From assembly GCA_013112715.1 (NCBI GenBank), contig JABFGB010000015.1, positions 62,001-126,000 on the forward strand: 64,000 nucleotides of DNA, written 5' to 3'. The notes under the pieces were generated by a model. It worked only from the letters and a program-made list of their open reading frames with translations, ran no database searches and was not told the DNA's origin. The position numbers and the translations under genes were made by a program. The stretch is from Chloroflexota bacterium (GTDB lineage: Bacteria; Chloroflexota; Anaerolineae; Aggregatilineales; J027). Position 1 is the first letter of the stretch; each line of letters starts with the position of its first letter. Positions 14,340 to 52,822 of this stretch are shown here, piece after piece.

Positions 14340-14801
14340 TCAGGGCTGACGCAGGCCATACACATCCAGTATCTGCTCACGGGTGAAGTCTAGGGTCTTC
14401 ATAATTTTGTGCGAAAAGCGCTTCATGAACTCATAACCGAGCTTCGGATCGGCTTCGCATTTGTTCCGTAAACATACTCCATCGAGTGCGATCACCCGTG
14501 TAAGTTCCATTGCGCGGCCACTGAACCGCCAGACATACGGCGAAAAAAGCCATGACCAACCCACCACATCCCCCTCATCGTGGGTATAGATCGTAATCAG
14601 TTGTCCCGGCACTGACATTTCCACGGCTATTTTCCCATAGCGGATGATGAAGAATTTGTTGGCTTCAGCGCCCTCCTTAAAGAGATATTCACCACCTTCA
14701 TAACGTTCGTTAGATGCACAACCGGTTAGTAGTTCGAGATAGATTTTGTCGAGTCCCTCAAAAAATGGGTGTTGGGTCAGGATTGGTTCAAGTGTTTCCA
14801 T
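14340..14801 (-). CDS. Stand-alone cyclic-nucleotide-binding-fold protein 2 of the hydrogenase operon
   Basis: A 153-residue protein made of a single CAP_ED (cNMP-binding) fold with no DNA-binding domain. The phosphate-binding cassette is altered: where classical binders have a GE(L/I)A...RxA motif, this has GDVVGWSWLFSPYVW followed by SGRA, so the ligand-contacting Glu is replaced. The start at 14801 is set by AAGGAG ten bases upstream. It is the last gene of the hdr-mvh operon, 31 bases after its paralogue-like neighbour. A regulatory or assembly role for the hydrogenase is inferred from position; cAMP binding should not be assumed. Confidence 0.8.
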   Translation of the reverse strand: METLEPILTQHPFFEGLDKIYLELLTGCASNERYEGGEYLFKEGAEANKFFIIRYGKIAVEMSVPGQLITIYTHDEGDVVGWSWLFSPYVWRFSGRAMELTRVIALDGVCLRNKCEADPKLGYEFMKRFSHKIMKTLDFTREQILDVYGLRQP

Positions 14802-14832
14802 GATTTTGTTTCTCCTTAGCTGGCTTGTTGGA

Positions 14833-15300
14833 TTAAGAGTGAGTGCCGATGAGTTGTAGACGAGTATCATGCAGCCGTGACAAAGCCGTGGTGGCGATGT
14901 GATGGACCAATACAGAATCTAGCTTGAGGTCTTTTTCGCACAGGGTACGCAAGGCGGGTGCCGCGATTTCAATGACTCGAGAGAGGCTGTTCGCTAAAGC
15001 GGTTGCCGTGTATTGATAGGGTTCAATCAGGGCTGAGATCCCAAACGGCTCACCCGGATTGATATGCCCGACATAAAAATCTTTTCGTAAGGTTGGGTTA
15101 TCCCGATCTATCACAACATAATGCAAATCAATCAGCCCTTCGACCAAAATGAACAAGGCATGGGCAGGTTGATCCGTCTGGATCAGCGTCTCACCTTTTG
15201 CATAGGCGACCTCGTTTGACAGCATGGCAATCGCTTTGAGTTGCGTGTCATCCAGATGGGCAAAAAATGGGAAACGGCGCAAGAGTTCAGGAGATATCAT
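14833..15300 (-). CDS. Stand-alone cyclic-nucleotide-binding-fold protein 1 of the hydrogenase operon
   Basis: A 155-residue single-domain protein with the CAP_ED beta-roll (FPFFAHLDDTQLKAIA, then GETLIQTDQPAHALFILVEG). Its cassette reads GEPFGISALIEPYQYTATA: the Gly-Glu is kept but the essential Arg of the canonical motif is absent. No helix-turn-helix follows. Its ATG overlaps the TGA of the protease gene by 4 bases, so the two are translationally coupled. Together with the next gene it may form a heterodimeric sensor or an accessory subunit for the hydrogenase-Hdr complex. Confidence 0.8.
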   Translation of the reverse strand: MISPELLRRFPFFAHLDDTQLKAIAMLSNEVAYAKGETLIQTDQPAHALFILVEGLIDLHYVVIDRDNPTLRKDFYVGHINPGEPFGISALIEPYQYTATALANSLSRVIEIAAPALRTLCEKDLKLDSVLVHHIATTALSRLHDTRLQLIGTHS

Positions 15301-15875
15301 AGAACCTCCTCAGCAATCTGATCTAGTTTTTTAATAACCAACTGCACTGCACAGGGTACAGCCGCCATGATAGCTGGTGTAAGGCTTTCACTAAAAATAA
15401 AGGTGGGTTCGACCTCGACCCCAATGACCCATATGGCATCGGGGAGCTTGGCGACTAGATTACGCCCCATCTCTAAAGCTACTTGGAGGCTGGTATCATG
15501 CGCAGAATAGAGATGCCCAACCGAGTAAGAGGGCAATGATTCCAGCGAGTAGGAGTACAGGCTGCCGATGGGTTGCTGACCCAAGGTGATGGCATCAATC
15601 AGGATTGCCGCGTCATAGCCAATCATCTGCTCCATGAGACGCAGCCCACCAACCGCTAATCGCTCGACTTCCACAGCAGCGACCATAGAGGAGTGAGTTT
15701 CTCCCTCCCCTACGGTTTTAGATTGTTCTTGTAGAGCGCATTCAACATGACTTGCGACGCGCCAGCCGAAACCATCATCACCCAGTAGGGGATTCCCCAA
15801 CCCGATAATCAAGATGCGCGGTTGTGGTATCACACCTCCGGTGAGAGGACTGTCACTGACGGATCGTATTTCCAT
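15297..15875 (-). CDS. [NiFe]-hydrogenase maturation endopeptidase (HyaD/HycI family)
   Basis: A 192-residue cytoplasmic protease that clips the C-terminal tail of the hydrogenase large subunit after nickel insertion. The family opening IIGLGNPLLGDDGFGWRVA is at about residues 22-41, and the other conserved acidic and His residues appear in ILIDAI and GHLYSAHD. A roughly 20-residue N-terminal extension precedes the core; the ATG has GAGGAGGG upstream at a long spacing. The large-subunit gene directly upstream has a 27-residue cleavable tail, which is the expected substrate. Confidence 0.9.
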   Translation of the reverse strand: MEIRSVSDSPLTGGVIPQPRILIIGLGNPLLGDDGFGWRVASHVECALQEQSKTVGEGETHSSMVAAVEVERLAVGGLRLMEQMIGYDAAILIDAITLGQQPIGSLYSYSLESLPSYSVGHLYSAHDTSLQVALEMGRNLVAKLPDAIWVIGVEVEPTFIFSESLTPAIMAAVPCAVQLVIKKLDQIAEEVL

Positions 15876-15900
15876 CCTATTGCGTTCCCTCCTCGTTCAA

Positions 15901-17403
15901 TCAGCAGTGCTGATGGAGGACATCAACGGTATTCCCCGCCGCGTCCCGAATAATCACTTCCAGTGGCATCTGGCCCGGTAAGGAATGTGTGGCACATCCA
16001 AAACACGGATCATAGGCTCGAAAGGCCATCTCAATTTGATTCAGGAGGCCTTCGGTGACGACAGTTCCATGTTGTATAAGCTGCTGGGCAGCCTTTTTGA
16101 TAGACATGGTGATCGGCGCATAATTGTTGGTCGTGCCGACAATTAAATTGACTTTTGTCAAAATACCACGCTCATCTGTCCAATAATGATGCGTGAGAGT
16201 TCCACGCGGCGCTTCTACACAGCCAACCCCTTCGGTTGGGGCCTCTTGGGGTACGGCGTGAATTTGAGGTGAGGTAATTTCCGGATCGGTGGCAAGTTCA
16301 ACCCAGCGTTCGGCAGCATAGAGCAATTCCACAAGGCGTGCCCAGTGTGTTGCCAAGCGATGATGCACCACCTTGGTATCGCCCGTGGCGGTATAGCGTT
16401 TGGCTTCTTCCGTCACCAATGTGGCATAAAAACGTTCATATTCCTCTTGGGCACGGGGGGTTGCCATCCCATCCGCCGCGTTGAGTCGTGACAAGGGTGT
16501 GGCGCAGTACACCCCGGAATCCTTGCCGTCCACAAAGCCTTTCCAGCCGATTTTCTTTAAATAGGGGAATTTGAGATATGTCCACGGCTCGACATGTTCC
16601 GCAATCCAATCGGTATAGTCATGCGGGTCATACATCCCAATGCGTTCGCCATCAGGAGCCACGAGGCTGATTTGTCCATCATAGAAATTCACATGCTTCT
16701 TTGCATCCACCATGCCCATATAGTAGGTACGGTGGGAGTACGTGTCGCCCACGACTAAATCCACATAGGCCTGATTGCCCAGCACAATGTCATCAAACAA
16801 CTTGAGGCTGAATTGGGCAAACTCAACCGCCCAGTGCCCCATCTGCTCGATTTCCTTACGCTGTTCCTCGGTGATGCCTTTGGTCAACCCGCCGGGGATG
16901 GAGGTACAAGGATGCACCTTGCGACCCCCGATCATCTCAATCACCGTATGACCATATTTGCGGGCTTGGATGACCTTGCTGCCAATCTCAAGACCGACTT
17001 TGTGAATGACCCCCAAGATGTTGCGCTCGGCAACTGGCGCAGTCGGCCCCATGATGAAATCTGGGCCACCCAGCGCATAAAAGTGGGTGGTATGATCGGT
17101 GACATAAAACGCACTGTACAGGAGTTCGCGCAGTTTTTTTGCGGTGGGTGGGGGATCCACATGATAAACGGCATCCCCAGCTTTGGCTGCCGCCATATGG
17201 TGTGCTTCAGGGCAAACTCCACAGATGCGGTTGGTCAGAATGGGCATTTCTTCAACGGGTCGCCCAACACAAAACCGTTCAAAACCGCGCAATTCAGGTA
17301 TTTGAAAGTAGGCATTGGCAACGTCACCCGCTTCATTCAAAAAGATTTCGACCTTGCCGTGTCCCTCCAAACGAGTGATGGGATCAATGGTGATGCGTTG
17401 CAT
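15901..17403 (-). CDS. mvhA: [NiFe]-hydrogenase large subunit, group 3 (MvhA/HoxH-like)
   Basis: A 500-residue catalytic subunit that binds the NiFe(CN)2CO centre and oxidises or evolves H2. The first ligand pair is in RICGVC (Cys61, Cys64) and the second in DPCFGCATH (Cys467, Cys470, His473). A 27-residue tail follows His473, the site where the maturation protease would cut. The start ATG at 17401-17403 lies inside the end of the small-subunit gene (20-base overlap); a longer frame upstream is only the shadow of that gene. Neighbouring mvhD and hdrABC genes point to the cytoplasmic group 3c-type enzyme. The tail sequence SLPGQMP resembles HoxH tails, so the exact subgroup needs a tree. Confidence 0.93.
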
Positions 17404-18403
17404 ACTGCTCCTCCTCTTCCAATACCACCGGGGCAGCCCGCAACATCGAATGGGCGAGACTGAAACGGTAAAATTGACCCACTGGGTCGGGCAGGGTATC
17501 AAGAACCCGCTCAATCTCGGCAGGCTCTTTACCTTCGATGACCGAAGCAAACGCCGTCATCAGGCGTGCTCCAAAGTCTAAGGTGCCGTCGCTTGATCCG
17601 TAACAGCCAATACACTGAGCACCAGCGCGAGGACACAACGCCCCACAGCCACTCCGGGTTGCCGGGCCATTACAGGGGATACCCTGCTCCAATAAACAGA
17701 GATTGGGGTCAATCGCCGCCAGCTGCTGAATGCGCGTAAAGTGTTGGATGGTTTTGACATTACGAATGCGGGGACATTCATCACACACCGTCGAAGTGCC
17801 CGCCCCGATGACACTGCCCGTTGGCGGCAGCGTGGCCTTCCCTTGAAGAGCTTGAATCACCAGATCAACGACTGCCCCTATCTGATGAGATTCTGGCGGA
17901 CAACCCGGCATGTAATAGTCCACTGCGACCACTTGATCGAGGGTCTTGAGGACAGGATAGAACTCTGGGATGTGCAGATTGCCTTCGGGTGCCGCCCACT
18001 GAAAATCTGGACGAATGCCCGTCGGGTTATCGGTACTGACCCCCTCATATACCGCCTCAAAAATCTGCTCACGAGTGCTCAGATTGGCTAGTCCGGGGAT
18101 ACAACCAGCGCAGGCGCATGATCCAAACGCGACCAAAATCTTAGATTTACGGCGCATCAGATGAGCCATCGCTTCGTTTTCGGTATTGCGAATACCCCCA
18201 TTAAACAAAGTCAGGGTTATCGCTTCGTCCGGCATGGCCTCGACATCTTTGTATTTGGCGTCCATTGCGACAGGCCAGAAAACAACCTCAAAATTCGCAT
18301 CCACATCAAGGATTTTCTCATGGATATTCAGCACGGCGATTTCGCACCCGCCGCATGACGCCGCCCAATACATGGCAAATTTGGGTTTACCATTTACGCT
18401 CAT
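17384..18403 (-). CDS. mvhG: [NiFe]-hydrogenase small subunit (MvhG-like)
   Basis: A 339-residue iron-sulfur subunit passing electrons from the NiFe site. Proximal-cluster ligands are seen in ASCGGCE (Cys17, Cys20), GSCACAGC and PGCPP; further Cys-rich segments (CDECPR, CLLEQGIPCNGPA, SGCGALCPRAGAQCIGC) supply medial and distal [4Fe-4S] clusters. There is no twin-arginine signal and no membrane anchor, so it is cytoplasmic. Its ATG overlaps the mvhD stop by 4 bases. About 30 residues at the C-terminus, ending in three His, are extra and overlap the large-subunit start. Confidence 0.93.
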   Translation of the reverse strand: MSVNGKPKFAMYWAASCGGCEIAVLNIHEKILDVDANFEVVFWPVAMDAKYKDVEAMPDEAITLTLFNGGIRNTENEAMAHLMRRKSKILVAFGSCACAGCIPGLANLSTREQIFEAVYEGVSTDNPTGIRPDFQWAAPEGNLHIPEFYPVLKTLDQVVAVDYYMPGCPPESHQIGAVVDLVIQALQGKATLPPTGSVIGAGTSTVCDECPRIRNVKTIQHFTRIQQLAAIDPNLCLLEQGIPCNGPATRSGCGALCPRAGAQCIGCYGSSDGTLDFGARLMTAFASVIEGKEPAEIERVLDTLPDPVGQFYRFSLAHSMLRAAPVVLEEEEQYATHHH

Positions 18404-18876
18404 GCTGTCCCCCTTTCTGCTGTCGGTTGCACATGAGCAACCTCGGGGGGGTTAAGCGGCAGGGGGTAGCGTGATTTAAACGGCCCCAACGCGCGGATTT
18501 GTTCCACCATGTCGGTGATTTCTTGGGCCAATTTGACCCCTTCGGCGGCACTTGCCCAGACCAGTTTGATGCGTTCTGGTTCGATACCCATCTGGGTCAA
18601 GACTCGTCGCAGCATCAAATAACGACGGAGCGTCTTATAGTTTTGCTCCAAATAGTGGCACTCGCCGGGATGACAGCCCGTGATGAGAACACCATCCGCC
18701 CCGGAAGTCAATGCTTTGAGCACAAAAGTAGGATCAAGCCGCCCGGAGCACATCAGCCGAATCAGCCGGATGTTGGGTGGATATTTGACCCGTGCGGTAC
18801 CCGCCAAATCAGCGGCGCGGTAGCTGCACCAGTTGCAGGTGAAACCAATGATGACTGGTTCAAAGGTGTCGTTCAT
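18400..18876 (-). CDS. mvhD: MvhD, [2Fe-2S] linker between hydrogenase and HdrA
   Basis: A 158-residue protein of the methyl-viologen-reducing hydrogenase delta-subunit family. Five conserved Cys (CNWC at 14-17, MCSGR at 43, GCHPGEC at 68-73) should hold one [2Fe-2S] cluster. In methanogens MvhD carries electrons from the hydrogenase to the bifurcating flavin of HdrA. The gene overlaps hdrA by 4 bases upstream and mvhG by 4 downstream, as expected for a stoichiometric complex. The C-terminal 20 residues are Pro-rich and unconserved in appearance. Confidence 0.92.
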   Translation of the reverse strand: MNDTFEPVIIGFTCNWCSYRAADLAGTARVKYPPNIRLIRLMCSGRLDPTFVLKALTSGADGVLITGCHPGECHYLEQNYKTLRRYLMLRRVLTQMGIEPERIKLVWASAAEGVKLAQEITDMVEQIRALGPFKSRYPLPLNPPEVAHVQPTAERGTA

Positions 18877-20912
18877 GCCAGCACTCCTTCCGTCATCGGT
18901 GGGCGCTCGATATTGTGCAGCAGCAGCCCTTCCATTTGGGCAAATATCTGCTCATTACTGAACACCGTCCCGCTGATAGCGCCTGCTGGACAGGCGGCTA
19001 CACACGTTCCACAGCCTTGACATAAGGCCGGGTTCACTTCTGTTACCATCCGATCTTCATGGAAGAGGATGGCATTAAATGGACATAGACCATTGCAGAT
19101 GCGGCAACCAGAACATTTACTCTCGTCCACACTGGCTCGCACAGGCTCAAGCGCGATTTCCTTTTGTTGAATGCGCCCCAGTACCCGCGCGGCGGCGGCG
19201 GCGCCCTGCGCCACACTGTTAGGAATATCCTTTGGCCCTTGTGCGCAGCCCGCCACAAAAACCCCTTCGGTCATGGTCGCTACCGGGTCGAGCTTGGGAT
19301 GTTTTTCGATAATCCAGCCGTCTGAACTGCATGAGATACCGAACAACTTGGCAACCTCGTGGGAATCTCGACGTGGTTCCAACCCTACTGAAAGAATGAC
19401 CATATCTACGGGAATCCGGCGCTGTCGGCCCGCGAGAGTATCCTCGACTTGGACAATGAGTTTGCCCTCTTCATTGGGCATTCGTGCGGCATCGGTCACT
19501 TCTGCCACACGCCCACGCACAAAGATCGTACCTTCATCCAAGACGCGTTGATAAAACTCATCATAGGCTTTCGCCGTTGTACGAATATCAATATAGAAGT
19601 TGTAGACTGTTGCGCCTGTGCGCTCCTTGACCAAATGGGCAAATTTGAGACTTTGCATACAACAGATGGCCGAACAATAGTTGTTAAAATTTCGGTCACG
19701 GCTGCCAGTACAGTGAATGATCCCAACCGTTTGGGGTACGGTGACTCCATCCCGCAGCACGATGTTGCCATTGGTTGGCCCGGCAGCATTGCTCAACCGC
19801 TCAAATTCAATACTGGTGAAGACATTCGCCAATCGCGCATACCCATATTGGGCGACACGACGCGCATCAAAGACATCATAGCCTGTAGCAAGCACGATAT
19901 TCCCAACCTGAAGCGTGACGATTTCATCTTCTTGCTTGAAGTCAATCGCGTCGGTAGGACAGAGTTTCTCACAGGCGCGGCAGGTGCCTTTTTGGAAATA
20001 GGTGCAATTCACGTCGTCAATCACCGGGTATTTGGGGACGGCCTGTGGGAAAGGCGTATAAACGGCCTTCCGATAGCCAAGACCCGCTTCAAAGGTGTCA
20101 TCTATCACTTTCTTAGGACATTTTTCTTGACAGATGCCACACCCGGTACATAGATCGGTGTTGATATAACGGGCTTTCTTTTTCACCGTCACCGTGAAGT
20201 TGCCAACATAGCCTGCAACATTCGTGACTTCACTCCAAGTCATTAAGGTGACGTTGGGGTGAGAGCCAATGGAGACCATACGCGGGGTCAGGATGCAGGC
20301 CGCACAATCCAACGTGGGGAAGGTTTTATCAAACTGCGCCATGTGACCCCCGATAGAGGGTTCACGTTCAACCAGATAGACCGGAAAGCCTGCGTCGGCT
20401 ATTTCGAGCGCGGCTTGGATACCGGCAATCCCACCACCCACCACCAGCGTCGCCGGATGAATGGGCACGTGCAAGGGATCAAGTGGTGCGTGATGCAGCA
20501 CCCGTTCAACACCGCCCGACAGAATGGCTTTGGCTTTTTCGGTAGCGGCGTGTTTATCGGTGTGAACCCACGACGCTTGTTCTCGAATTGAGACTAGTTC
20601 ACACAAGTATGGATTTAGCCCTGCTCGCTGGCAGGCCACACGAAAGGTTGCTTCATGAAGGTGTGGTGAACAAGCAGCCACCACAACCCGCGTGAGGCCG
20701 AGTTCTTGGATATCTTTTTCGATCAGTTCCTGCCCAAGACTGGAACACATAAACTTGTAGTCCCGCGCGATGACAACGCCTCGATCTTTGAGATGTTCGG
20801 CAGCCCACTTCGCAACGGCCTCAACATCAATCACCCCTGCGATATTGGTGCCGCAGTGGCAGACATAAACCCCCACACGCTCAGTTGTTGAATGATTGAT
20901 CTTGGACATCAT
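18873..20912 (-). CDS. hdrA: HdrA, flavoprotein of the heterodisulfide-reductase-like complex
   Basis: A 679-residue FAD and iron-sulfur protein, the likely electron-bifurcating core. In order: an N-terminal HdrA domain with CHCGTNI near residue 18; a Rossmann FAD motif (VVGGGIAGIQAAL, near 157); TLDCAACILTPRM near 200; a ferredoxin pair (CTGCGICQEKCP, then CRACEKLCP); the second half of the FAD domain; and a C-terminal ferredoxin (CSGCRICNGLCP, CQGCGTCVAACP). Length is normal for HdrA. The start follows the hdrB stop with no gap, with AGGAGG as ribosome-binding site. Confidence 0.94.
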   Translation of the reverse strand: MMSKINHSTTERVGVYVCHCGTNIAGVIDVEAVAKWAAEHLKDRGVVIARDYKFMCSSLGQELIEKDIQELGLTRVVVAACSPHLHEATFRVACQRAGLNPYLCELVSIREQASWVHTDKHAATEKAKAILSGGVERVLHHAPLDPLHVPIHPATLVVGGGIAGIQAALEIADAGFPVYLVEREPSIGGHMAQFDKTFPTLDCAACILTPRMVSIGSHPNVTLMTWSEVTNVAGYVGNFTVTVKKKARYINTDLCTGCGICQEKCPKKVIDDTFEAGLGYRKAVYTPFPQAVPKYPVIDDVNCTYFQKGTCRACEKLCPTDAIDFKQEDEIVTLQVGNIVLATGYDVFDARRVAQYGYARLANVFTSIEFERLSNAAGPTNGNIVLRDGVTVPQTVGIIHCTGSRDRNFNNYCSAICCMQSLKFAHLVKERTGATVYNFYIDIRTTAKAYDEFYQRVLDEGTIFVRGRVAEVTDAARMPNEEGKLIVQVEDTLAGRQRRIPVDMVILSVGLEPRRDSHEVAKLFGISCSSDGWIIEKHPKLDPVATMTEGVFVAGCAQGPKDIPNSVAQGAAAAARVLGRIQQKEIALEPVRASVDESKCSGCRICNGLCPFNAILFHEDRMVTEVNPALCQGCGTCVAACPAGAISGTVFSNEQIFAQMEGLLLHNIERPPMTEGVLA

Positions 20913-21917
20913 TCATTCCTCCTCACTGTGGAGCATCTGAGGCATGGGCAGACCCGCTTTTTCTTTCTTCTTGCGGGCGGGCTTGTCTTCTACCATTTCG
21001 AGTTCTGGCTCGGCGGCAGGCACCTCAATGCCAATGCGACTGAGCGCTTGGCTGGCATTCACAAATTCCTTACCCAGCCCCAGAACTTCCGGCTCTAAAC
21101 CAAACGCCAGCCCCATTAGCTGGGTGAAATAGAGGATGGGCATGTGGTAGTTGGTGTGGAAATGCCGATTCATTTCGGACTGATAGGCATCTAAATTCAG
21201 TTGGCACATGGGGCACAAAGTCACCATGAGATCGGCATGGTACTGCGCCGCACCATAGACCAAGCGCCGGATGAGTTCGTAGGCGGTAGGCATATTGATT
21301 TGGGTCATGTGTCCACCACAGCAGTGTGTCTTCAGTGGGAAGTCTATCACCTCCGCACCAATGGCCTTCATCAACTTATCCAGCGCAAGGGGATGTTCGA
21401 CATTGTCCCAGCGATTGTCGCGGTCTGGGCGCGCGATCATACACCCATAGTAAGGAGCGATCCGTAAGCCCTTTAAGGGACGAACGACCTGCTTTCTTAT
21501 TTCTTCAATACCGATGTCATTGACGATGATGTCAAGGAGATGGCGTATTCGCACCGTGCCGGGTTGGTAATGGAGGCCACCCGCTTGTAGGGCGTCATTG
21601 ACCTGCCGATTCAACTGGGCATTGACCTGCATATAGCTGTCGGTCTTGGCGAGGTTGAGATAACATGCACTGCACGCCGCCATAACGGTATGGGTGCCGT
21701 TGCTTTGTTGGGCAGCTAAGGCCAGATTTCGCCCGACCAGCGCATGAGACGCAAGGTGGTGGATCGCAATATATTCCGTCGCGCCACAGCAGTTCCAGTC
21801 TTGGATTTCCTCTAGTTCAATGCCGATCAGAGGACTGATGGCGACCAACGAATCTAGGTAGGGTCGGGCGGTGCGTTGCAGCGAACAACCGGGATAAAAG
21901 AGCAGCTTCGTTGTCAT
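20913..21917 (-). CDS. hdrB: HdrB, catalytic CCG-domain subunit
   Basis: A 334-residue protein with two CCG modules that bind the noncubane [4Fe-4S] clusters reducing heterodisulfides in methanogens. First module: Cys11, CysCys43-44 (WNCCGATEY) and Cys82/85 (ACSACYLNL). Second: YYGCMIARP, HCCGGHM and LCPMCQLNL. A Lys/Glu-rich tail of about 40 residues (KPARKKKEKAG region) is added beyond the usual end. The acceptor cannot be CoM-S-S-CoB in a bacterium, so the natural disulfide or other acceptor is unknown. It overlaps hdrC by 4 bases. Confidence 0.93.
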   Translation of the reverse strand: MTTKLLFYPGCSLQRTARPYLDSLVAISPLIGIELEEIQDWNCCGATEYIAIHHLASHALVGRNLALAAQQSNGTHTVMAACSACYLNLAKTDSYMQVNAQLNRQVNDALQAGGLHYQPGTVRIRHLLDIIVNDIGIEEIRKQVVRPLKGLRIAPYYGCMIARPDRDNRWDNVEHPLALDKLMKAIGAEVIDFPLKTHCCGGHMTQINMPTAYELIRRLVYGAAQYHADLMVTLCPMCQLNLDAYQSEMNRHFHTNYHMPILYFTQLMGLAFGLEPEVLGLGKEFVNASQALSRIGIEVPAAEPELEMVEDKPARKKKEKAGLPMPQMLHSEEE

Positions 21918-22516
21918 ACCCCCACCTCCAATTCGATGGCACGGGCCAAAATCGCTTGGAGTTGCTCGATTTTCTCAATCCGCTGGGGCGCAAAATCCAT
22001 GCGGCGTCGGGCCAGCATCCCTAAGCCAAGCGGAACCATCGAGGGCAGTTGTAGCGGGCGATGTCGCAGGTTGTGGCGTGTCGCCAAGCCAAGTTCATAA
22101 CTGCGACCATAACTTTCGATATAACCGATAAACGTCTGTGAAAAATCGGGGGCCGTGGAATCGTCGTAGCGTTTTTCGCGGATTGCCATACTTTTTAGGG
22201 TGTACATTACGTCGGTAATGTGGACTTCTTGGGGACAGCGGACTGTGCAGAAATAGCAGGATACACAGTACCAAGGGGTGTTACTTCGAAGCACTTCTTC
22301 ACGCAGATCGGCCCGTATCATGGCAAAGATCTGCCGAGGCGTATGGTTCATATCCGCAGCGGATGGACATGAACCGCCACAAGTCCCGCATTGGATACAC
22401 ATGCCGAGGCGGGAATCTCCGGGAGTGGCTTCAATGACCTCCTGTAAAAAACTACCGGGAGGCGAGACAGCTGTTGGCGGAGAGGCATTTTGCACTCTTA
22501 GACTTTGATCGTCCAA
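21914..22516 (-). CDS. hdrC: HdrC, ferredoxin-like subunit of the Hdr complex
   Basis: A 200-residue iron-sulfur protein linking HdrA to HdrB. Two [4Fe-4S] motifs are complete: Cys40/43/46/50 (MCIQCGTCGGSCP) and Cys84/87/90/94 (YCVSCYFCTVRCP). The start is a TTG at 22514-22516: AGGAGGTG lies five bases upstream and no ATG or GTG is close enough. It is the first gene of the nine-gene hydrogenase operon, preceded by a promoter-like sequence and a CRP/FNR-type palindrome. The C-terminal half beyond residue 100 is helical and typical for HdrC. Confidence 0.92.
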   Translation of the reverse strand: MDDQSLRVQNASPPTAVSPPGSFLQEVIEATPGDSRLGMCIQCGTCGGSCPSAADMNHTPRQIFAMIRADLREEVLRSNTPWYCVSCYFCTVRCPQEVHITDVMYTLKSMAIREKRYDDSTAPDFSQTFIGYIESYGRSYELGLATRHNLRHRPLQLPSMVPLGLGMLARRRMDFAPQRIEKIEQLQAILARAIELEVGV

Positions 22517-43137: not shown

Positions 43138-43334
43138 TTCATTCGACGTATAAGTGATAATATAAATCTTTCGAAGTTGAGACTATTAAACGGGGTGCAT
43201 TTGTCAAGTGGTGTCATTGATTATGGCGGAAGGTTATAATTGTCCGTTAGGATTGGGAAAATGTGGTAGGTCAGTGATTTGCTAAAATGAGTGTGGCGCT
43301 GTACCCTCGCTCGCTGCAAAGTAGGAAAACAACG

Positions 43335-45398
43335 ATGAATCATGCACGATTTCTCAAGGTCATAGTTCTTATACTCTTCGGCTTTGCCACACTGATCCGG
43401 CCCAACGTCGCCAGAACGTATCAGGCAACGGATAGGGTCATTTATGACGATGCCCTTGCCACTGGATGGGATAATTGGTCATGGGATAGCACCATTGATT
43501 TTGCCGCCACCGATGCCACCCACAGCGGGTCAGCGGCGTTGGCGATTACCATCAACGCGGCATGGGCGGGGCTGTATCTCCATTCACAGACGGGACTGCA
43601 ATATCAGACCCTGCGCTTCTGGATACGGGGCAATGGGCAGACCCTTGTGGTATTCCTCGCCAACCAAAGCGGTGCTTTTGTGGAAGGCGCACGGATTACC
43701 CCACCCCTCAACACGTGGACACAGGTAGATGTTCCGCTGGCGGCACTCAACGGCGCGGCGCTATGGGGATTTAGCCTAGCCGATGGCACAGGCAACCCGC
43801 AACCGCGTTTCTTGGTGGATGACATCCAGCTTATGGGCGGCCAAGCCCCTGTTGCGCTGGCCCTGACCATTAACGCCAATGCCAATCAGCATCCCATCAG
43901 CCCGTATATCTATGGCCTGAATTTTGCCGACCCCATCCTTGCCGCCGACATCCGCCTGCCCGTCAATCGCTGGGGGGGCAATGCCACGACGCGCTACAAC
44001 TGGCAGAACGACACCTCCAATCGCGGCAGTGACTGGTATTTTGAAAATATCCCGGAGGAAAACGCCAATCCTGCCGCCCTGCCCAATGGCTCATCCGCCG
44101 ACCGATTCATCGCCCGGAATGTCGCCCTTGGAACCGACACCCTCTTGACCATTCCCATGATTGGCTGGACACCCAACAGCCGCGCCGGAATTACGTGTGG
44201 ATTCAGTGTCAGCGAGTATGGCCCACAGCAAAGCACCGACCCCTATCGGCCTGACTGTGGCAACGGCGTCCACCCCAATGGCACACTGATGACGGGCAAT
44301 GACCCTACCGACACCAGTACCGCGATTGGCCCCACTTTTGTGCAGGCGTGGATGCAACATCTGATGGGGCAATTTGGCACAGCGGCGCAAGACGGTGTCC
44401 GGTTTTACAATCTCGATAACGAACCCGCCCTGTGGAACAGCACCCACCGCGATGTGCATCCCCAACCGTTGAGTTATGACCAATTGCGCGACCTGACTTA
44501 TCAATATGCCGCCGCGATTAAAGCAACCGACCCCAATGCCTTGACGGTTGGCCCAGCGGAATGGGGCTGGTCAGGTTATTTTTATTCGGCGCTGGATATG
44601 GCCTCTGGCCCGCAGTGGTGGCTCAATCCGCCCGACCGCAACGCACATGGCGGGATGCCTATATCCGCATGGTATCTGCAACAGATGCAACTGTATGAAC
44701 AGCAGCATGGGATACGCATTTTGGATTATTTTGACCTCCATTATTATCCACAATCCAACGGCGTGGCCCTCTCGCCAGCGGGGGATGCCAATACACAGGC
44801 GCTCCGGTTGCGTTCGACCCGTAGTCTGTGGGACCCGACTTATGTGGACGAAAGCTGGATCAATGAACCCGTGATGTTGATTCCGCGTATGCAGGCGTGG
44901 ATAGACCAATATTACCCCGGCACGCTGATTGCCATTTCGGAATATAACTTTGGCGGATTGGAAAGCATCAACGGGGCACTGACACAAGCCGACGTGTTGG
45001 GCATCTTTGGGCGTGAGGGGGTTGATTTGGCGACAATGTGGGACCCACCCACCGCCGACCAACCCGCCGCCCATGCCTTCCGTGTTTATTGTAATTACGA
45101 TGGGTCGGGTAGTGTATTTGGCGACACCAGCGTGCAAGCCACCAGCACCGACCAAGAGCGCCTCTCGATTTATGCCGCCCTACGTAGTGATGGGGTGTTG
45201 ACGGTGGTCATCATCAACAAAACCAATGGGGCGTTGAGTAGTCCCTTGACGATTAATGGTTTTGCGGGTACGACGGCGGAGGTCTATCGGTATAGCGCGG
45301 CCAATCTGGGCCAAATCGTACGGGAAAACAACATGGTCTTGAGCAACGCGGCTATCGAATTTCCTGCGAGTTCGATTACGTTGCTGGTGATTCGATAG
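43335..45398 (+). CDS. Secreted GH44 endoglucanase-like glycosidase
   Basis: A 687-residue secreted enzyme. The ATG at 43335 opens a signal peptide (LKVIVLILFGFATLIRPN). A beta-sandwich (about residues 35-170, ending RFLVDDIQLMGG) resembles a carbohydrate-binding module. The GH44 catalytic domain follows: RWGGNATTRYNW (about 222), acid/base Glu363 in LDNEPALW and nucleophile Glu536 in AISEYNFGG. A terminal beta-sandwich (TVVIINKTN to ITLLVI) completes it, as in known GH44 enzymes. It should cleave beta-1,4-glucans or xyloglucan outside the cell. Confidence 0.88.
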   Translation: MNHARFLKVIVLILFGFATLIRPNVARTYQATDRVIYDDALATGWDNWSWDSTIDFAATDATHSGSAALAITINAAWAGLYLHSQTGLQYQTLRFWIRGNGQTLVVFLANQSGAFVEGARITPPLNTWTQVDVPLAALNGAALWGFSLADGTGNPQPRFLVDDIQLMGGQAPVALALTINANANQHPISPYIYGLNFADPILAADIRLPVNRWGGNATTRYNWQNDTSNRGSDWYFENIPEENANPAALPNGSSADRFIARNVALGTDTLLTIPMIGWTPNSRAGITCGFSVSEYGPQQSTDPYRPDCGNGVHPNGTLMTGNDPTDTSTAIGPTFVQAWMQHLMGQFGTAAQDGVRFYNLDNEPALWNSTHRDVHPQPLSYDQLRDLTYQYAAAIKATDPNALTVGPAEWGWSGYFYSALDMASGPQWWLNPPDRNAHGGMPISAWYLQQMQLYEQQHGIRILDYFDLHYYPQSNGVALSPAGDANTQALRLRSTRSLWDPTYVDESWINEPVMLIPRMQAWIDQYYPGTLIAISEYNFGGLESINGALTQADVLGIFGREGVDLATMWDPPTADQPAAHAFRVYCNYDGSGSVFGDTSVQATSTDQERLSIYAALRSDGVLTVVIINKTNGALSSPLTINGFAGTTAEVYRYSAANLGQIVRENNMVLSNAAIEFPASSITLLVIR

Positions 45399-47025: not shown

Positions 47026-48858
47026 ATGATTAAGCGATATTTAATTTGGGGCATCATGCTAGGGGGGCTATCGCTTGTCGTCATGGCGGGTTCGCAAATC
47101 CATGCCCAAGATGACGGCGAATCGCCTCCCAAATATGCGGGAAGTAGTGAATGTGCCGATTGTCACCGTGATCTTTCGCGTCCGTATCGGGAGAGTAACC
47201 ACGCCAAAGCCTTGCAAGAGGCTGATGACGAAGACACGGTGGTGCTGGCCGATTTTTCCGCTGGAGCAGAGGTACGGACGGTTGTTTTCTCCGTCAATGG
47301 CAGCCCGCGACCCTTTACTTTGGAAGATGTGGCGTGGGTCATGGGCGCAGGCCGCTATCGCCAAGCCTTTGTCTATCAAAATGAAGACACCTATCGGGTT
47401 TTTCCGGCGGTGTGGAATGTGACCACGCAGCAATGGGATGCCTATGAGCTTGGTGCGGGCGATTGGCTGACCGACCCGGCCTATGATTGGCTAGAGAACT
47501 GCGCGGGCTGTCACACCACTGGCCTCGACCTTGAAGAGCGCGAATGGGAAGACGACGGGGTGATGTGCGAAGCGTGTCACGGCCCCGGCGAAGCCCATAT
47601 TGACGCGGCGGATGAAGCGGGTTCGCGGCCTACCGACGAAGACATCGCCACGATTCATGCGGCGATTGTCGTCAGCCCCGATCCGGCCATTTGCGGGCGC
47701 TGTCACAGTCAAGGCGTTGCCGCTGACACGATCCATCCTTTTTCAACCACCTATCTACCCGGTAAAGATTTGCTGGCGGATTTCACGCTGGTGGACAAAG
47801 AAGACGCCGATTATTGGTGGACATCGAACCATGCCCGCCGAAATAATATGCAATTTAATGAATGGCGCGATTCAGCCCATGCGACGGCACTGGAAACGAT
47901 GGCGTCGTCCAGCCAAGCGCAGGATGCGTGTTTGCAATGCCACAGTGCCGATTATGGCTTTACCCAAACCCTCCTCGTCAGCTATGAAGCGGGCGATCTC
48001 ACGGGTGTCCCGCCGGAAATGCCAACCCTGCAATCGGCGCAATATGGGATTACCTGCGTGACCTGCCATTCCTTCCATGTAGATGCCGAAACCCCACCGC
48101 CGTCAGCTTTGCGCGACGATGCCTATGCCTTATGCGTTCGCTGCCACACGCAGACGGACGTGACGGAGAGCCTGCACCATCCCGTTCAACAAATGTTTGA
48201 AGGCGTAACGGTCATCCCCTCGGTTGAAGGCGTACCGGGTAGCCATTTTGTGGCGGAAGATGGGCCAGACTGCCTGAATTGCCATATGACCCGGCTGCCG
48301 ATTGATGGCGATTTTACATTGGCGACCCATGCCCTTAAGCCACTTTTGCCAGATACCGAATCTACGGCTGAGGTGCAGAATATTTGCGCCAACTGCCACA
48401 CGGATTTGACGACCAACGACCAGCAATATCTTGTCACCGATCTGCAAGAGAATGTTCGCGGACGCTTGACGTTGGCCCGGACGCGCCTTAATACGCTACC
48501 TGTTCCCGCCGAAGGCAGTGATGCCAAAACCCTTTATGATGAGGTCGTAACGGCGCTGGATTTTGTGCAAAACGATGGCAGCTTGGGGATGCACAATTAC
48601 GATTACGCCTCCCGCCTGTTGGATTTTGTCGAATTTTCACTTTCGACACTCAGCGTACCGGGGAGTACGGGCCAACCGACCGAAGGCCCTGCCCCAACCG
48701 CGACCCCCCTTCCCTCGGCGGTGACAGTGATTGAGACGCCGCTTGCCGAAGCATCCAGCGGTATCCGTCCGACGGGAGTGCTGATTTTGCTCATCGCGGC
48801 GGTTATGCTCATCATCGGCGCTGTGGTGCTTTTCCGAAAGGGGGTGGGTCATGCTTAA
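47026..48858 (+). CDS. Nine-haem c-type cytochrome, membrane-anchored
   Basis: A 610-residue protein with a signal peptide (YLIWGIMLGGLSLVVMAGSQ), nine CxxCH haem sites (CADCH, CAGCH, CEACH, CGRCH, CLQCH, CVTCH, CVRCH, CLNCH, CANCH) and a C-terminal membrane helix (VLILLIAAVMLIIGAVVLF) behind a Pro/Thr linker. The region between haems 1 and 2 (VAWVMGAGRYRQAFVY then VFPAVWN) is that of the cytochrome-c554-like multihaem family. Two His-rich helices near residues 270-290 (SNHARRNNMQ, RDSAHATAL) may supply distal haem ligands. It starts a three-gene cluster with overlaps, so it should donate to or accept from the membrane cytochrome encoded last. Electron partner unknown. Confidence 0.88.
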   Translation: MIKRYLIWGIMLGGLSLVVMAGSQIHAQDDGESPPKYAGSSECADCHRDLSRPYRESNHAKALQEADDEDTVVLADFSAGAEVRTVVFSVNGSPRPFTLEDVAWVMGAGRYRQAFVYQNEDTYRVFPAVWNVTTQQWDAYELGAGDWLTDPAYDWLENCAGCHTTGLDLEEREWEDDGVMCEACHGPGEAHIDAADEAGSRPTDEDIATIHAAIVVSPDPAICGRCHSQGVAADTIHPFSTTYLPGKDLLADFTLVDKEDADYWWTSNHARRNNMQFNEWRDSAHATALETMASSSQAQDACLQCHSADYGFTQTLLVSYEAGDLTGVPPEMPTLQSAQYGITCVTCHSFHVDAETPPPSALRDDAYALCVRCHTQTDVTESLHHPVQQMFEGVTVIPSVEGVPGSHFVAEDGPDCLNCHMTRLPIDGDFTLATHALKPLLPDTESTAEVQNICANCHTDLTTNDQQYLVTDLQENVRGRLTLARTRLNTLPVPAEGSDAKTLYDEVVTALDFVQNDGSLGMHNYDYASRLLDFVEFSLSTLSVPGSTGQPTEGPAPTATPLPSAVTVIETPLAEASSGIRPTGVLILLIAAVMLIIGAVVLFRKGVGHA

Positions 48859-50008
48859 CAAAAAATATCTCTTGATAGGCTTGGGCCTTGCGCTGATTGT
48901 ATTGGCCCTCTCGGTCAAACCATCCATCCCGGCGGCAAAGGCCATTGAGACACCGCCCCCGCCGCAACCCAGCCCCCAGCAAGATGGGGGACAAGCTAAA
49001 CCCACCAACAGCTATTGCCTGTTATGCCATGCCGAAGCGGGAGAAGCGGGAGAAGACGGACAGATGTGGGAATTGCCCAGTGGCGAAACCCTCCCCTTGA
49101 CGATTGACCCCACGATTTTGGCAGCGTCGGTACATGGGGAGAATAACCCCGAAGGCCCGGTAGCCTGTGCGGATTGCCACCAAGATTATCGTTATCCGCA
49201 TCCCCCCAACGCCAGCCAAAGCGTGCGCCAATTTCGCTTGGAACGTTATGGCTCGTGTCGGACATGCCACGAGGACAAATATCTTGCGGCGCAAGACAGC
49301 ACACACGGGGCGGCGCTGCGGGCGGGACAGCAGGATGCAGCGGTTTGTATAGATTGTCATGGCGGGCACGATATTCAACCACCCCAAGAGCCGCGTGAGC
49401 GAATTTCGCTGACCTGTGGGCAGTGTCATGGGGCGATTTTTGAAACCTATCGGGACAGCGTTCATGGTACGGCACTTTTGGAAGAAGCTAACCCCGATGT
49501 GCCGACGTGTACCGATTGTCATGGGGTGCATACCATCGCCAACCCCACCACCATGTCGTTCCGAACTCATACCCCGGAACTATGTGGCGATTGTCATGGC
49601 GACGCGGATTTGATGGCGAAATATGACATCAGCACGGCAGTCTTGGATACGTATTTGACGGATTTTCATGGGTCAACCGAACTGCTTTTTGCCGAATCCG
49701 ATGGTGAGGAGGCAGGCAACAAAGCCGTGTGCATAGACTGTCATGGCGTACACAATATTCAGGCGGTGGACGACGGCGCGGCGGTGCGTGAAAATCTGCT
49801 GACGACCTGCCGCCAATGCCACCCCGACGCCAGCGAAAATTTCTCCTCGGCTTGGGTGGGACATTACGAGACCTCGCTCGAAGAAAACCCGCTGCTGACA
49901 CTGGTCACATGGTTTTATAAGTGGCTGATCCCGATTGGGATAGGGGTATTTGGCTTGATGATCGCCACGAATGTATTGGGCGGACGTATTTGGGGGAGGG
50001 GACGATGA
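48851..50008 (+). CDS. Nine-haem c-type cytochrome, membrane-anchored
   Basis: A 385-residue protein with an N-terminal signal or anchor (LLIGLGLALIVLALSV), nine CxxCH motifs (CLLCH, CADCH, CRTCH, CIDCH, CGQCH, CTDCH, CGDCH, CIDCH, CRQCH) and a C-terminal membrane helix (WLIPIGIGVFGLMIATNVL). Paired motifs with HGxH spacing, such as CHGGHD and CHGVHT, are typical of cytochrome c3/c7-like multihaem chains. The start overlaps the previous gene by 8 bases. Both nine-haem proteins likely lie outside the cytoplasmic membrane as an electron wire. Confidence 0.88.
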   Translation: MLNKKYLLIGLGLALIVLALSVKPSIPAAKAIETPPPPQPSPQQDGGQAKPTNSYCLLCHAEAGEAGEDGQMWELPSGETLPLTIDPTILAASVHGENNPEGPVACADCHQDYRYPHPPNASQSVRQFRLERYGSCRTCHEDKYLAAQDSTHGAALRAGQQDAAVCIDCHGGHDIQPPQEPRERISLTCGQCHGAIFETYRDSVHGTALLEEANPDVPTCTDCHGVHTIANPTTMSFRTHTPELCGDCHGDADLMAKYDISTAVLDTYLTDFHGSTELLFAESDGEEAGNKAVCIDCHGVHNIQAVDDGAAVRENLLTTCRQCHPDASENFSSAWVGHYETSLEENPLLTLVTWFYKWLIPIGIGVFGLMIATNVLGGRIWGRGR

Positions 50009-51093
50009 GCAAAAATCCTGCTGGAATCCAACGCTTTTCGCCTCGCCAGCGTTTTGAACATCTGGTGTTGATGGTGGCGTTTGTGGGGTTGGCGCTGACT
50101 GGCCTACCGCAAAAATATGCGGACAAAGATTGGTCACAAACCCTCGTGAAATTAATGGACGGGGTTGAGAATATGCGCGTGCTGCATCGGGTGTTTGCGG
50201 TGCTGCTGTTGGGCGAAATCCTCTATCATCTGGTGATAGTGGTCTATAAACTGCGGGTGCTGGGACTCCCGGCCAGCTTGGTTCCCCGGCGACGTGATCT
50301 GCGGGATGCACTTGATTGGCTGCGCTTTAACCTGCATCTGAAAGCCGAACGTCCCGCCATGCCCTATTACAATTTCGCCGAAAAATTGGACTATTGGCTC
50401 ACCGTGACCGGGGTGCTGCTGTTGGCGCTGACGGGGTTGATGCTGTGGAATCCCATTCTCGTGACGGACACCCTGCCGGGTGAGGTCATTCCCGCGGCGC
50501 GTCAGGTACATGGCGGCGAGGCGCTGTTCTTGGTTATTGCCATTGGCATGTGGCATCTGTATGGCGTGCTGCTTAAACAGTTTAATCGCAGCATATGGAC
50601 GGGCAAGATCACCCAACGCCAGATGGAGCAGGAACACGCCGAGGCACTCACCGTCGAACGCCCTGCCCCCAGATTTTCGGCAACCGAGATTCAAAAACGC
50701 CGCCAGCGCTTCTATCCGATAGCCGGGGTGGTTGTGGTGGCGCTTGTCGCGGGCATGTACTGGCTGCTGACCACTGAAAAGACGGCCTTAGAGACCGTGC
50801 CGCGCCAAGAAGTCCAACTTTTTGCCCCGGAATTGGATGTACAGGCGGGAGATGCCACTGTCGGCGAAGCACTGTGGGGGACACTGCGCTGTTCGCGCTG
50901 TCATGGGATGGAGGCAGCCGGGGTTCCAGACGGTGCGCCGTCCTTACGCGGCACAACCCTAACCTTTGATGAATTTCTCTTGCAAGTGCGGGAGGGCGGG
51001 GAAGCTATGCCCGCGTTTAGCCATCTGGAAGTCTCGGATGTGTATGTGCTGCATCTGTGGACATGGCTTAAGGATGCCGCAAGCCCGCAATAG
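50005..51093 (+). CDS. Membrane cytochrome b with a fused C-terminal cytochrome c
   Basis: A 362-residue protein. The first 230 residues are a four-helix cytochrome b of the formate-dehydrogenase-gamma/hydrogenase-cytochrome-b type, with haem-ligand His candidates in FEHLVLMVAFVGLALTGLP, LHRVFAVLLLGEILYHLV and VHGGEALFLVIAIGMWHLYG. A fifth helix (PIAGVVVVALVAGMYWLL) leads to a periplasmic monohaem domain with CSRCH near residue 295 and a distal Met in AMPAF. The ATG overlaps the preceding stop (ATGA). It should link the quinone pool to the multihaem proteins encoded upstream. Confidence 0.87.
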   Translation: MSKNPAGIQRFSPRQRFEHLVLMVAFVGLALTGLPQKYADKDWSQTLVKLMDGVENMRVLHRVFAVLLLGEILYHLVIVVYKLRVLGLPASLVPRRRDLRDALDWLRFNLHLKAERPAMPYYNFAEKLDYWLTVTGVLLLALTGLMLWNPILVTDTLPGEVIPAARQVHGGEALFLVIAIGMWHLYGVLLKQFNRSIWTGKITQRQMEQEHAEALTVERPAPRFSATEIQKRRQRFYPIAGVVVVALVAGMYWLLTTEKTALETVPRQEVQLFAPELDVQAGDATVGEALWGTLRCSRCHGMEAAGVPDGAPSLRGTTLTFDEFLLQVREGGEAMPAFSHLEVSDVYVLHLWTWLKDAASPQ

Positions 51094-51151: not shown

Positions 51152-52822
51152 TCAATTTTCCGGTGCGCCGTTGCTAATCCATTGACGCAGCAGTTCCATT
51201 TGGTGTTTGGTCAGGCTTGCGAAGTGTCCCCCCTCCAACGTTTGTACGATCAGACTGTCATCGGGTGATCCGGGGACAACCACCACGCCGCTTTCACTAC
51301 CCGCCATTAACCCGGCATATTCAATCAAACGCAGTCCTTTGCTGGGGGTCGGCCCATGACATGCGCCGCACGCCTGTTCAAAGAGGGGTTGTAAGATAGT
51401 ATAGGTTGGCTCACCTGTGAAATCTTCCAACAGCGGTTCGGCCTCAAATTGATACAGCCCAAGAATGGTCGCCATGCCCGGCGCATCAAACCCGGCAAAT
51501 TCCCATTTGTTGCCATGACACGCACTATTCGAGCAAAAACTGGAATTGTCCGTACCCCCCGGATTGCTCACGGTATGGCAATTCGAGCAGGTGGCGTCCA
51601 ATGAAAGATGGTGGCGGGTAATCCATGTTGAATCAAGGTGGGTTTGCGGCTCCAGTCCGGTGGCTAGCGGGAGCGTGGGTTCAATTTGATCGGGCGTGAC
51701 TATTTGGGGGATGGAATGACAAAGATTGCATTCAAGGCGGATGGTCGTACCTGCTGTACTAAAATGTTCACCATCATGACAGCGGAAACACCCCGGAAAA
51801 TTTAGATGCCCGATATTGTCAGGATGCGTTTGCCACGAAAGTTCCTGCTCTGGGAAGTTATTTTGTTCATAGATTTCGGTGAGCACGGTGACGGCCTCGG
51901 CAACCTTCGCGCTGCCTTCTGCATAGAAATCTGAATAATAATCCCGATAATATTGATCGAGGGTCTCAATGGAGGCCACTGCTTCTTCGCTGGTGGCATA
52001 GGCCCCGGAAAGCAGTTCAACCGCCCGCACCCGAATAAATGGGATATCGGTTGAAATATCACCCTGCGCGAGGGCTTTATCTACGGCGTCCTGCGGGGTG
52101 TCAATCAAATGCGAAATGCGGTTGTGGCAGGTTACACAATCCATCACATGAATTTCGTACTGATCGAGGTTGCTGGTGTCAATCGGCGAGTTGATGGCGT
52201 TGTAGTCCGTCACTTGACCATCGGGGGTTTCAACCCGCACCCAAGGGATATCTTGTTCATCTTTGTCCAGCGCGATATAAGAAACCTTGTTTTCAACGTG
52301 ACAATGAATCCCACGCCCCAGCCCTTCACGCTCATTGCCACCGCCTGTGTGCATCAGCAGGTAAACGGAATAGGCATCATTGGCGCGGTTATTTTCATAA
52401 CGGGGGATAATGCGGAGGCTGTCATCTGAAAATTTCTGAGGGAAATGGCATTGTTCACACGTGTCGCGGGCCGGACGCATGGAATGGGTACGGATGGGAT
52501 ATTCGTACCGATCTAGGACCGTCGCGGCGACCAGACGGGTATGGCCGATTTTGCGGCTGAATTGTACGGCTATCCAATCGCGCCCGATGTGACAATCTAC
52601 ACACAAAACCCGCGCATGAGGTGAAATTTGATAGGTTTTGTACTCAGGGGGCATGGTGTGACAGGTGGTTCCGCAGAAGGAGGTGGAATTGCTATATTCC
52701 CAACCGGGGGGGATGGTAAGGAGTGCGCCAATGATGACCACACCCGCACCCATTAAGACATACCCACGCACAAAAAACGTTTTTCGCAATAGTGACCTGA
52801 AAAAGCTAACCACTCTAGACAT
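51152..52822 (-). CDS. NapC/NirT-like multihaem cytochrome with C-terminal cytochrome-c domain
   Basis: A 556-residue membrane-anchored protein. A single N-terminal helix (residues 20-40, YVLMGAGVVIIGALLTIPP) precedes a NapC/NirT-type domain. Seven CxxCH sites are clear (CVDCH, CEQCH, CVTCH, CFRCH, CNLCH, CSNCH, CGACH). Two more sites have unusual spacing: CGTTCH (three residues between the Cys) just after the helix and CSNSACH (four) near residue 440. The C-terminal 90 residues form a planctomycete-type cytochrome c domain (CGACHGPTPSKGLRLIEYAG). Members usually oxidise quinol and pass electrons outward. It is convergent with the other three cytochrome genes. Confidence 0.87.
   Translation of the reverse strand: MSRVVSFFRSLLRKTFFVRGYVLMGAGVVIIGALLTIPPGWEYSNSTSFCGTTCHTMPPEYKTYQISPHARVLCVDCHIGRDWIAVQFSRKIGHTRLVAATVLDRYEYPIRTHSMRPARDTCEQCHFPQKFSDDSLRIIPRYENNRANDAYSVYLLMHTGGGNEREGLGRGIHCHVENKVSYIALDKDEQDIPWVRVETPDGQVTDYNAINSPIDTSNLDQYEIHVMDCVTCHNRISHLIDTPQDAVDKALAQGDISTDIPFIRVRAVELLSGAYATSEEAVASIETLDQYYRDYYSDFYAEGSAKVAEAVTVLTEIYEQNNFPEQELSWQTHPDNIGHLNFPGCFRCHDGEHFSTAGTTIRLECNLCHSIPQIVTPDQIEPTLPLATGLEPQTHLDSTWITRHHLSLDATCSNCHTVSNPGGTDNSSFCSNSACHGNKWEFAGFDAPGMATILGLYQFEAEPLLEDFTGEPTYTILQPLFEQACGACHGPTPSKGLRLIEYAGLMAGSESGVVVVPGSPDDSLIVQTLEGGHFASLTKHQMELLRQWISNGAPEN

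Follow-up and report, generated by a model that had tools for sequence, protein, structure and literature searches.

A quinone-linked extracellular electron-transfer system appears to be encoded at a compact locus of a Chloroflexota (Anaerolineae) bacterium, the envelope of which, judging by the phylum, is presumably monoderm. The probability of this reading is put at about 0.62, with the formation of complexes and the path, outward direction and acceptor of the electrons being inferred. The window, i.e., the whole 64,000-nucleotide stretch of DNA analysed, corresponds to positions 62001-126000 of contig 15 of a 5.55 Mb draft genome. The features discussed below are as follows:

Gene 1: 47026-48858, + strand; 610 aa, nine CXXCH motifs, signal-like N-terminus, C-terminal transmembrane (TM) helix
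Gene 2: 48851-50008, + strand; 385 aa, nine CXXCH motifs, N-terminal signal/TM segment, C-terminal TM helix
Gene 3: 50005-51093, + strand; cytochrome b domain, added TM helix, monohaem c tail
Gene 4: 51152-52822, - strand; multihaem cytochrome, convergent to the trio formed by genes 1 to 3
Gene 1/gene 2 overlap: 48851..48858, + strand; 8 nt, with the gene 2 ATG at 48851 and the gene 1 stop codon at 48856-48858
Gene 2/gene 3 overlap: 50005..50008, + strand; ATGA, with the gene 3 ATG at 50005 and the gene 2 TGA at 50006-50008, preceded by GGGGGAGGGG

The ATG at 50005 is the most likely start of gene 3; a GTG at 49921 was considered and set aside. Two thousand composition shuffles yielded CXXCH maxima of 1 and 2, versus nine motifs in each of genes 1 and 2. 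An earlier note on this DNA described a pair of nine-haem cytochromes together with a cytochrome b-c fusion in three overlapping genes, and the sequence agrees with this description, all three genes being on the + strand, but the total of eighteen c-type haems given there should be 19 (nine in gene 1, nine in gene 2 and one, at a CSRCH motif, in gene 3). Gene 4, which belongs with the trio, lies outside the coordinates of that note and was left out of it.

The nonahaem cytochrome of gene 1

OcwA of Thermincola is a cell-surface terminal reductase that slowly reduces nitrite and hydroxylamine in vitro, and also oxidises hydroxylamine. It exchanges electrons with electrodes and with shuttles, including FMN (PMC6703420). 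OcwA of T. potens is the best solved relative of gene 1, matching residues 36-540 (6i5b_A; phmmer, E 1.2e-51), followed by the undecahaem S-layer cytochrome 6qvm. All nine CXXCH motifs are in register in the alignment with OcwA, and H59, H191, H285, H351, H435 and H523 of gene 1 align with distal histidines of OcwA; these residues would suit the bis-His haems of OcwA, likewise six in number, and presumably belong to haems 1, 3, 4, 6, 7 and 8. The two HH sites of OcwA are 99 residues apart in the chain, in agreement with the published description. The site at haem 5 (OcwA 380/381) is retained in gene 1 as H384/H385, within the motif HHPxxEMFEG...CxxCHM, whereas that at haem 2 (OcwA 281/282) is NN, with loss of the His-His pocket, and it is because of this replacement that gene 1 is called 'OcwA-like' here rather than 'an OcwA'. 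Among the Chloroflexota homologues, the haem-5 site reads HHPxxEMFEG or a close variant, and the haem-2 site is mostly NNMQ(F/Y)NEW or a close variant, the HH of OcwA being replaced by NN, PN or KY in relatives of gene 1. A Met column of OcwA, possibly that of the His-Met haem 9, is another difference, as it is occupied by His407 in gene 1 and by His in nearly all homologues (79 of the 82 aligned sequences).

The C-terminal helix bundle of OcwA is shared by gene 1. Past the OcwA-aligned part, gene 1 continues with a Thr/Pro/Ser-rich linker of about 40 residues and a C-terminal TM helix; this membrane anchor distinguishes it from OcwA, as does the overlap of the gene with those of a quinone oxidoreductase of its own. 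Because the AF2 model of gene 1, built from eight sequences, was of low quality (pLDDT 51), only the rank order of its structural matches was used, OcwA ranking first (Z 14.2). In a quick tree, the Chloroflexota homologues of gene 1 formed one clade, whereas the position of OcwA, which has a long branch, was uncertain. Gene 1 is predicted from its sequence to be a terminal oxidoreductase tethered by the linker and the C-terminal TM helix, in which one NrfA/OcwA-type haem pocket (haem 5) is kept. The earlier note found no catalytic subunit evident, a view contradicted by the homology of gene 1 to a terminal reductase across the haem domain and with the conserved haem-5 His-His pocket. As an outcome that would speak against a conduit, the same note named an evident relationship to some known terminal reductase having a different set of partners. 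This is literally what the comparison with OcwA reveals; however, since OcwA is itself an extracellular electron-transfer protein, this homology narrows the role of the locus without removing it.

The same homology raises the question of soluble nitrogen compounds. Gene 1 could reduce nitrite, hydroxylamine or NO at the haem-5 pocket, with genes 2 and 3 serving as a quinol dehydrogenase, a role that fits the NrfA-superfamily fold of the protein, the conservation of the haem-5 motif, the in vitro reduction of nitrite and hydroxylamine by OcwA, and the co-occurrence of NrfA and gene 1 above chance (with a P value that ignores phylogeny and MAG gaps). It nevertheless appears unlikely. Unlike NrfA, gene 1 lacks PF02335 over most of the protein (no match at E 0.01, and a match over a short stretch only in its relatives) and lacks the CXXCK catalytic haem typical of most NrfA, no such motif being present in its sequence; moreover, it is accompanied by partners of CbcL and ImcH type and not simply by an NrfH. 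A full-length NrfA is encoded separately in the genome, on the same contig but outside the window (G000:C15:31458-32579; PF02335 E 3.5e-146), and a separate full-length NrfA is present in 17 of the 36 genomes carrying genes 1 and 2. NarG exceeded the cut-off in none of these 36 genomes, in a search in which only 7 genomes passed and the weaker matches were probably other molybdoenzymes. The separate NrfA and the lack of a NarG above the cut-off among the 36 genomes make dedicated nitrite reduction unlikely as the main job of the locus.

Genes 2 and 3 and the neighbouring gene 4

Nine histidines outside the haem motifs are invariant, or nearly so, among 53 homologues of gene 2, a number sufficient for the protein to be predicted as an electron wire with nine haems, all bis-His. 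Among solved structures, the best profile match of gene 2 is MtrA, chain A in the structure of the Mtr complex (6r2q; E 1.1e-14); the AF2 model of gene 2 is good (pLDDT 86) and matches this chain with a Z of 6.7 and an rmsd of 4.7 over 217 residues. HAO-like structures matched with slightly higher scores (Z 8-8.7), but gene 2 is not read as HAO-like, because the rmsd was near 11 Å over 230-243 residues. Gene 2 differs from the MtrA of MtrCAB in its C-terminal TM helix, and the ORFs of the cluster include no evident porin partner resembling MtrB.

In gene 3, an FdnI/HydC-type cytochrome b (matching FdnI, 1kqf_C) is extended by another predicted TM helix and by a c domain with one haem, with domain matches to PF01292 (1.8e-15) and PF13442 (2.6e-9). 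Histidines are present at four FdnI positions (H19, H61, H169 and H184), presumably those binding the b haems in FdnI, and gene 3 therefore probably binds two b haems. The membrane cytochrome b proposed earlier is borne out by these histidines together with the PF01292 and FdnI-type matches. One homologue of gene 3 (L036:2634-3674) appears, from the alignment, to be missing the two histidines that correspond to H19 and H184, the ligands of one of the two b haems.

CbcL and ImcH are quinol oxidases of extracellular electron transfer in Geobacter. The use of low-potential Fe(III) oxides and electrodes requires CbcL, which joins nine bis-His c haems to a di-haem b domain of six helices (PMC9129911). 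In one Geobacter genome (MAG UBA9964), the gene 3 profile retrieved a single protein of 615 aa (genome-wide E 8.8e-35), with nine CXXCH motifs followed by a b domain. Gene 2 matches the N-terminal half of this protein, first TM helix included (profile E 1.7e-47, BLASTP 5e-25), and gene 3 matches the C-terminal half (profile E 1.6e-38, BLASTP 6e-27), the two profile values being for comparison with this single sequence alone. The 615 aa protein, which comes from a MAG, is considered to be CbcL because of its architecture and homology and not because of any name attached to it. Because each of the two genes matches one half of a single protein of CbcL architecture, genes 2 and 3 are read as a split CbcL-type quinone oxidoreductase, collinear with Geobacter CbcL (CbcL/MtoC/MtrH) in its nine c haems, first TM helix and FdnI/HydC-type di-haem b domain. 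They differ from CbcL in that the c and b domains are encoded by two overlapping genes rather than forming one polypeptide, and in that the b subunit carries an extra TM helix and a monohaem c tail.

Gene 4 contains one CX3CH, seven CX2CH and one CX4CH motif. It has one match in the same Geobacter MAG, a protein of 507 aa (E 4.9e-82, 36% identity) with three TM helices, one CX3CH and six CX2CH motifs; these seven haem motifs are collinear between the two proteins, their order being the same in gene 4. The published description of ImcH, with three TM helices, a CX3CH and six CX2CH motifs, fits the 507 aa protein (PMC6295460), which is again named from architecture and homology in a MAG rather than from an existing name. 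On sequence grounds, gene 4 is an ImcH-type multihaem cytochrome of the NapC/NrfH family, sharing with Geobacter ImcH the CX3CH beside a membrane helix and the six collinear CX2CH motifs. It differs from ImcH in having one TM helix (N-terminal) rather than three, and in possessing the additional CX4CH and a C-terminal monohaem c domain, relatives of which also end gene 3 homologues in other lineages. The ImcH homologue of Anaerolinea thermophila likewise has one TM helix, and homologues of this form were accepted in the survey reporting it (PMC6295460).

Linkage of the four genes across Chloroflexota

Among 151 genomes of the order, gene 1 was found in 58, gene 2 in 40 and both in 36. Gene 1 lies directly upstream and gene 3 directly downstream at 28 of the 29 gene 2 loci fetched from the order; elsewhere in the phylum, a relative of gene 3 accompanies gene 2 at 28 of 28 loci, and gene 1 at none of them. 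An ImcH-type gene is present in all 19 genomes with a trio of the type found in the window, within 6 kb on the same contig in 17 of them and on another contig of the draft in the remaining two. At these 17 loci, its placement is upstream and divergent, downstream and convergent, or downstream and co-directional, and the persistence of the linkage through such changes in orientation points to a shared function. An ImcH-type gene is also located about 0.8 kb upstream of an OcwA-like gene in three genomes where gene 2 is missing.

A paralogous trio is present in the same genome as the window (L026:2370-6477), with 46-48% identity in genes 1 and 2, KY rather than NN at the haem-2 site, and no ImcH-type neighbour in the stretch examined. 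More distant nonahaem genes of the OcwA superfamily, from gammaproteobacteria and Gallionella (L097, L098 and L099), directly precede a gene for a large membrane protein devoid of haem motifs, possibly a sensor in place of a quinol module.

Proposed electron path and related clusters

The quinone-linked electron conduit suggested as possible in the earlier note is well supported, with genes 2 and 3 as a split CbcL-type protein and an ImcH-type gene next door. In the path proposed here, electrons from menaquinol would pass through the two b haems of gene 3 and its own c haem to gene 2, the products of these co-translated genes probably forming the two subunits of one CbcL-type complex. Gene 2, as a bis-His wire, would pass them on to gene 1 on the outer membrane face, and gene 1 to an acceptor beyond the membrane, which may be Fe(III) or Mn(IV) phases, humics, flavins or another cell, or else, at the haem-5 pocket, a small molecule. 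The ImcH-type protein of gene 4 would provide a second quinol entry feeding gene 1, and the CbcL-type and ImcH-type entries may, by analogy with Geobacter, serve acceptors of different potential. Points against such a conduit are the loss from gene 1 of the haem-2 His-His pocket of OcwA and, by analogy, the slow reduction of nitrite and hydroxylamine by OcwA, which may leave room for a soluble substrate. We know of no experiment linking this lineage to extracellular electron transfer. The genome encodes a haem-copper oxidase, indicating a lifestyle that is not strictly anaerobic.

Electrons might also flow inwards, with the oxidation of a donor in the periplasm or outside the cell (Fe(II), hydroxylamine or a partner cell) and the reduction of menaquinone, as proposed for MtoC. 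This is conceivable because the CbcL/MtoC/MtrH family is known from both Fe(III) reducers and Fe(II) oxidisers. Quinone reduction is the normal activity of FdnI-type b subunits, which usually generate a proton motive force with inward electron flow. The haem-copper oxidase would be compatible with this direction, and OcwA can oxidise hydroxylamine. However, the ImcH family, a member of which is kept next door, has so far been implicated in quinol oxidation only, and gene 1 is closest to a reductase, making inward flow distinctly unlikely. An unrelated respiratory or detoxifying role (e.g., the reduction of sulfur oxyanions, peroxide or metal ions), with a homology to extracellular electron-transfer proteins only superfamily-deep, is very improbable given the presence at one locus of three separate components of extracellular electron-transfer type, kept across families of the order, even though substrate changes come readily in multihaem families and the gene 2 and 3 pair, which is not accompanied by gene 1 at 28/28 loci of other Chloroflexota families, can serve other partners.

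Outward electron transfer, the preferred reading, would draw on parts each of which is a known family, or a split or modified form of one, and the locus unites components known separately from Thermincola and Geobacter. The combination of an OcwA-like protein, a split CbcL and an ImcH-type protein was not found described in the accessible literature, although such an absence is no proof of novelty, and OcwA was not found together with Chloroflexi in the literature searched, outside which lay most subscription journals and all bioRxiv preprints. In a survey published in 2018, a single ImcH and no protein of CbcL type were counted in Chloroflexi (PMC6295460); the split form could have been overlooked, or the genomes could have been unavailable at the time. 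The accessible part of a 2024 study of Chloroflexota from a ferruginous lake credits Anaerolineae with the use of unconventional electron acceptors and with different cytochromes, and names no conduit for them (PMC11650866). A broader proposal, put forward tentatively and at somewhat less than even odds, is that many Anaerolineae use extracellular acceptors for respiration through a distinct monoderm system, in which one OcwA-like terminal protein would receive electrons from two quinol entry points, the split CbcL-type complex and the ImcH-type oxidase, with Geobacter-like potential switching between these two; surveys would have missed the system owing to the split CbcL. Little is known about the respiration of Anaerolineae, which are common inhabitants of sediments, digesters and sludge; the locus offers a concrete marker set (OcwA-like, split CbcL and ImcH-type) for their genomes and transcriptomes, together with a testable model for the feeding of an OcwA-like protein from the quinone pool.

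Another cluster of the same genome (L025:9458-14015) encodes a 17-haem protein with an OcwA-like first half and, after it, a TAT-type FeS protein and NrfD; a sensor kinase/response regulator is found upstream of these genes, and a [NiFe] hydrogenase lies downstream. This cluster resembles the locus described here in this OcwA-like half and in its quinol-linked membrane partner, but has an NrfD/FeS rather than a CbcL-type quinol module, which may represent an alternative for the same kind of terminal cytochrome. The 17-haem protein was also considered as a fusion of genes 1 and 2, an argument that was dropped because the similarity of its C-terminal octahaem part to gene 2, at just 24%, sits mostly in the haem motifs. 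Within the window, about 25 kb from the cytochromes, an Mvh/Hdr-type cluster on the - strand (14340-22516) comprises genes for the large and small subunits of a [NiFe] hydrogenase, an HdrA-like FAD/FeS protein, HdrB/C-like and MvhD-like proteins, a maturation protease and two Crp-like proteins. A glycoside hydrolase family 44 protein is encoded at 43287-45398 (PF12891 6e-79).
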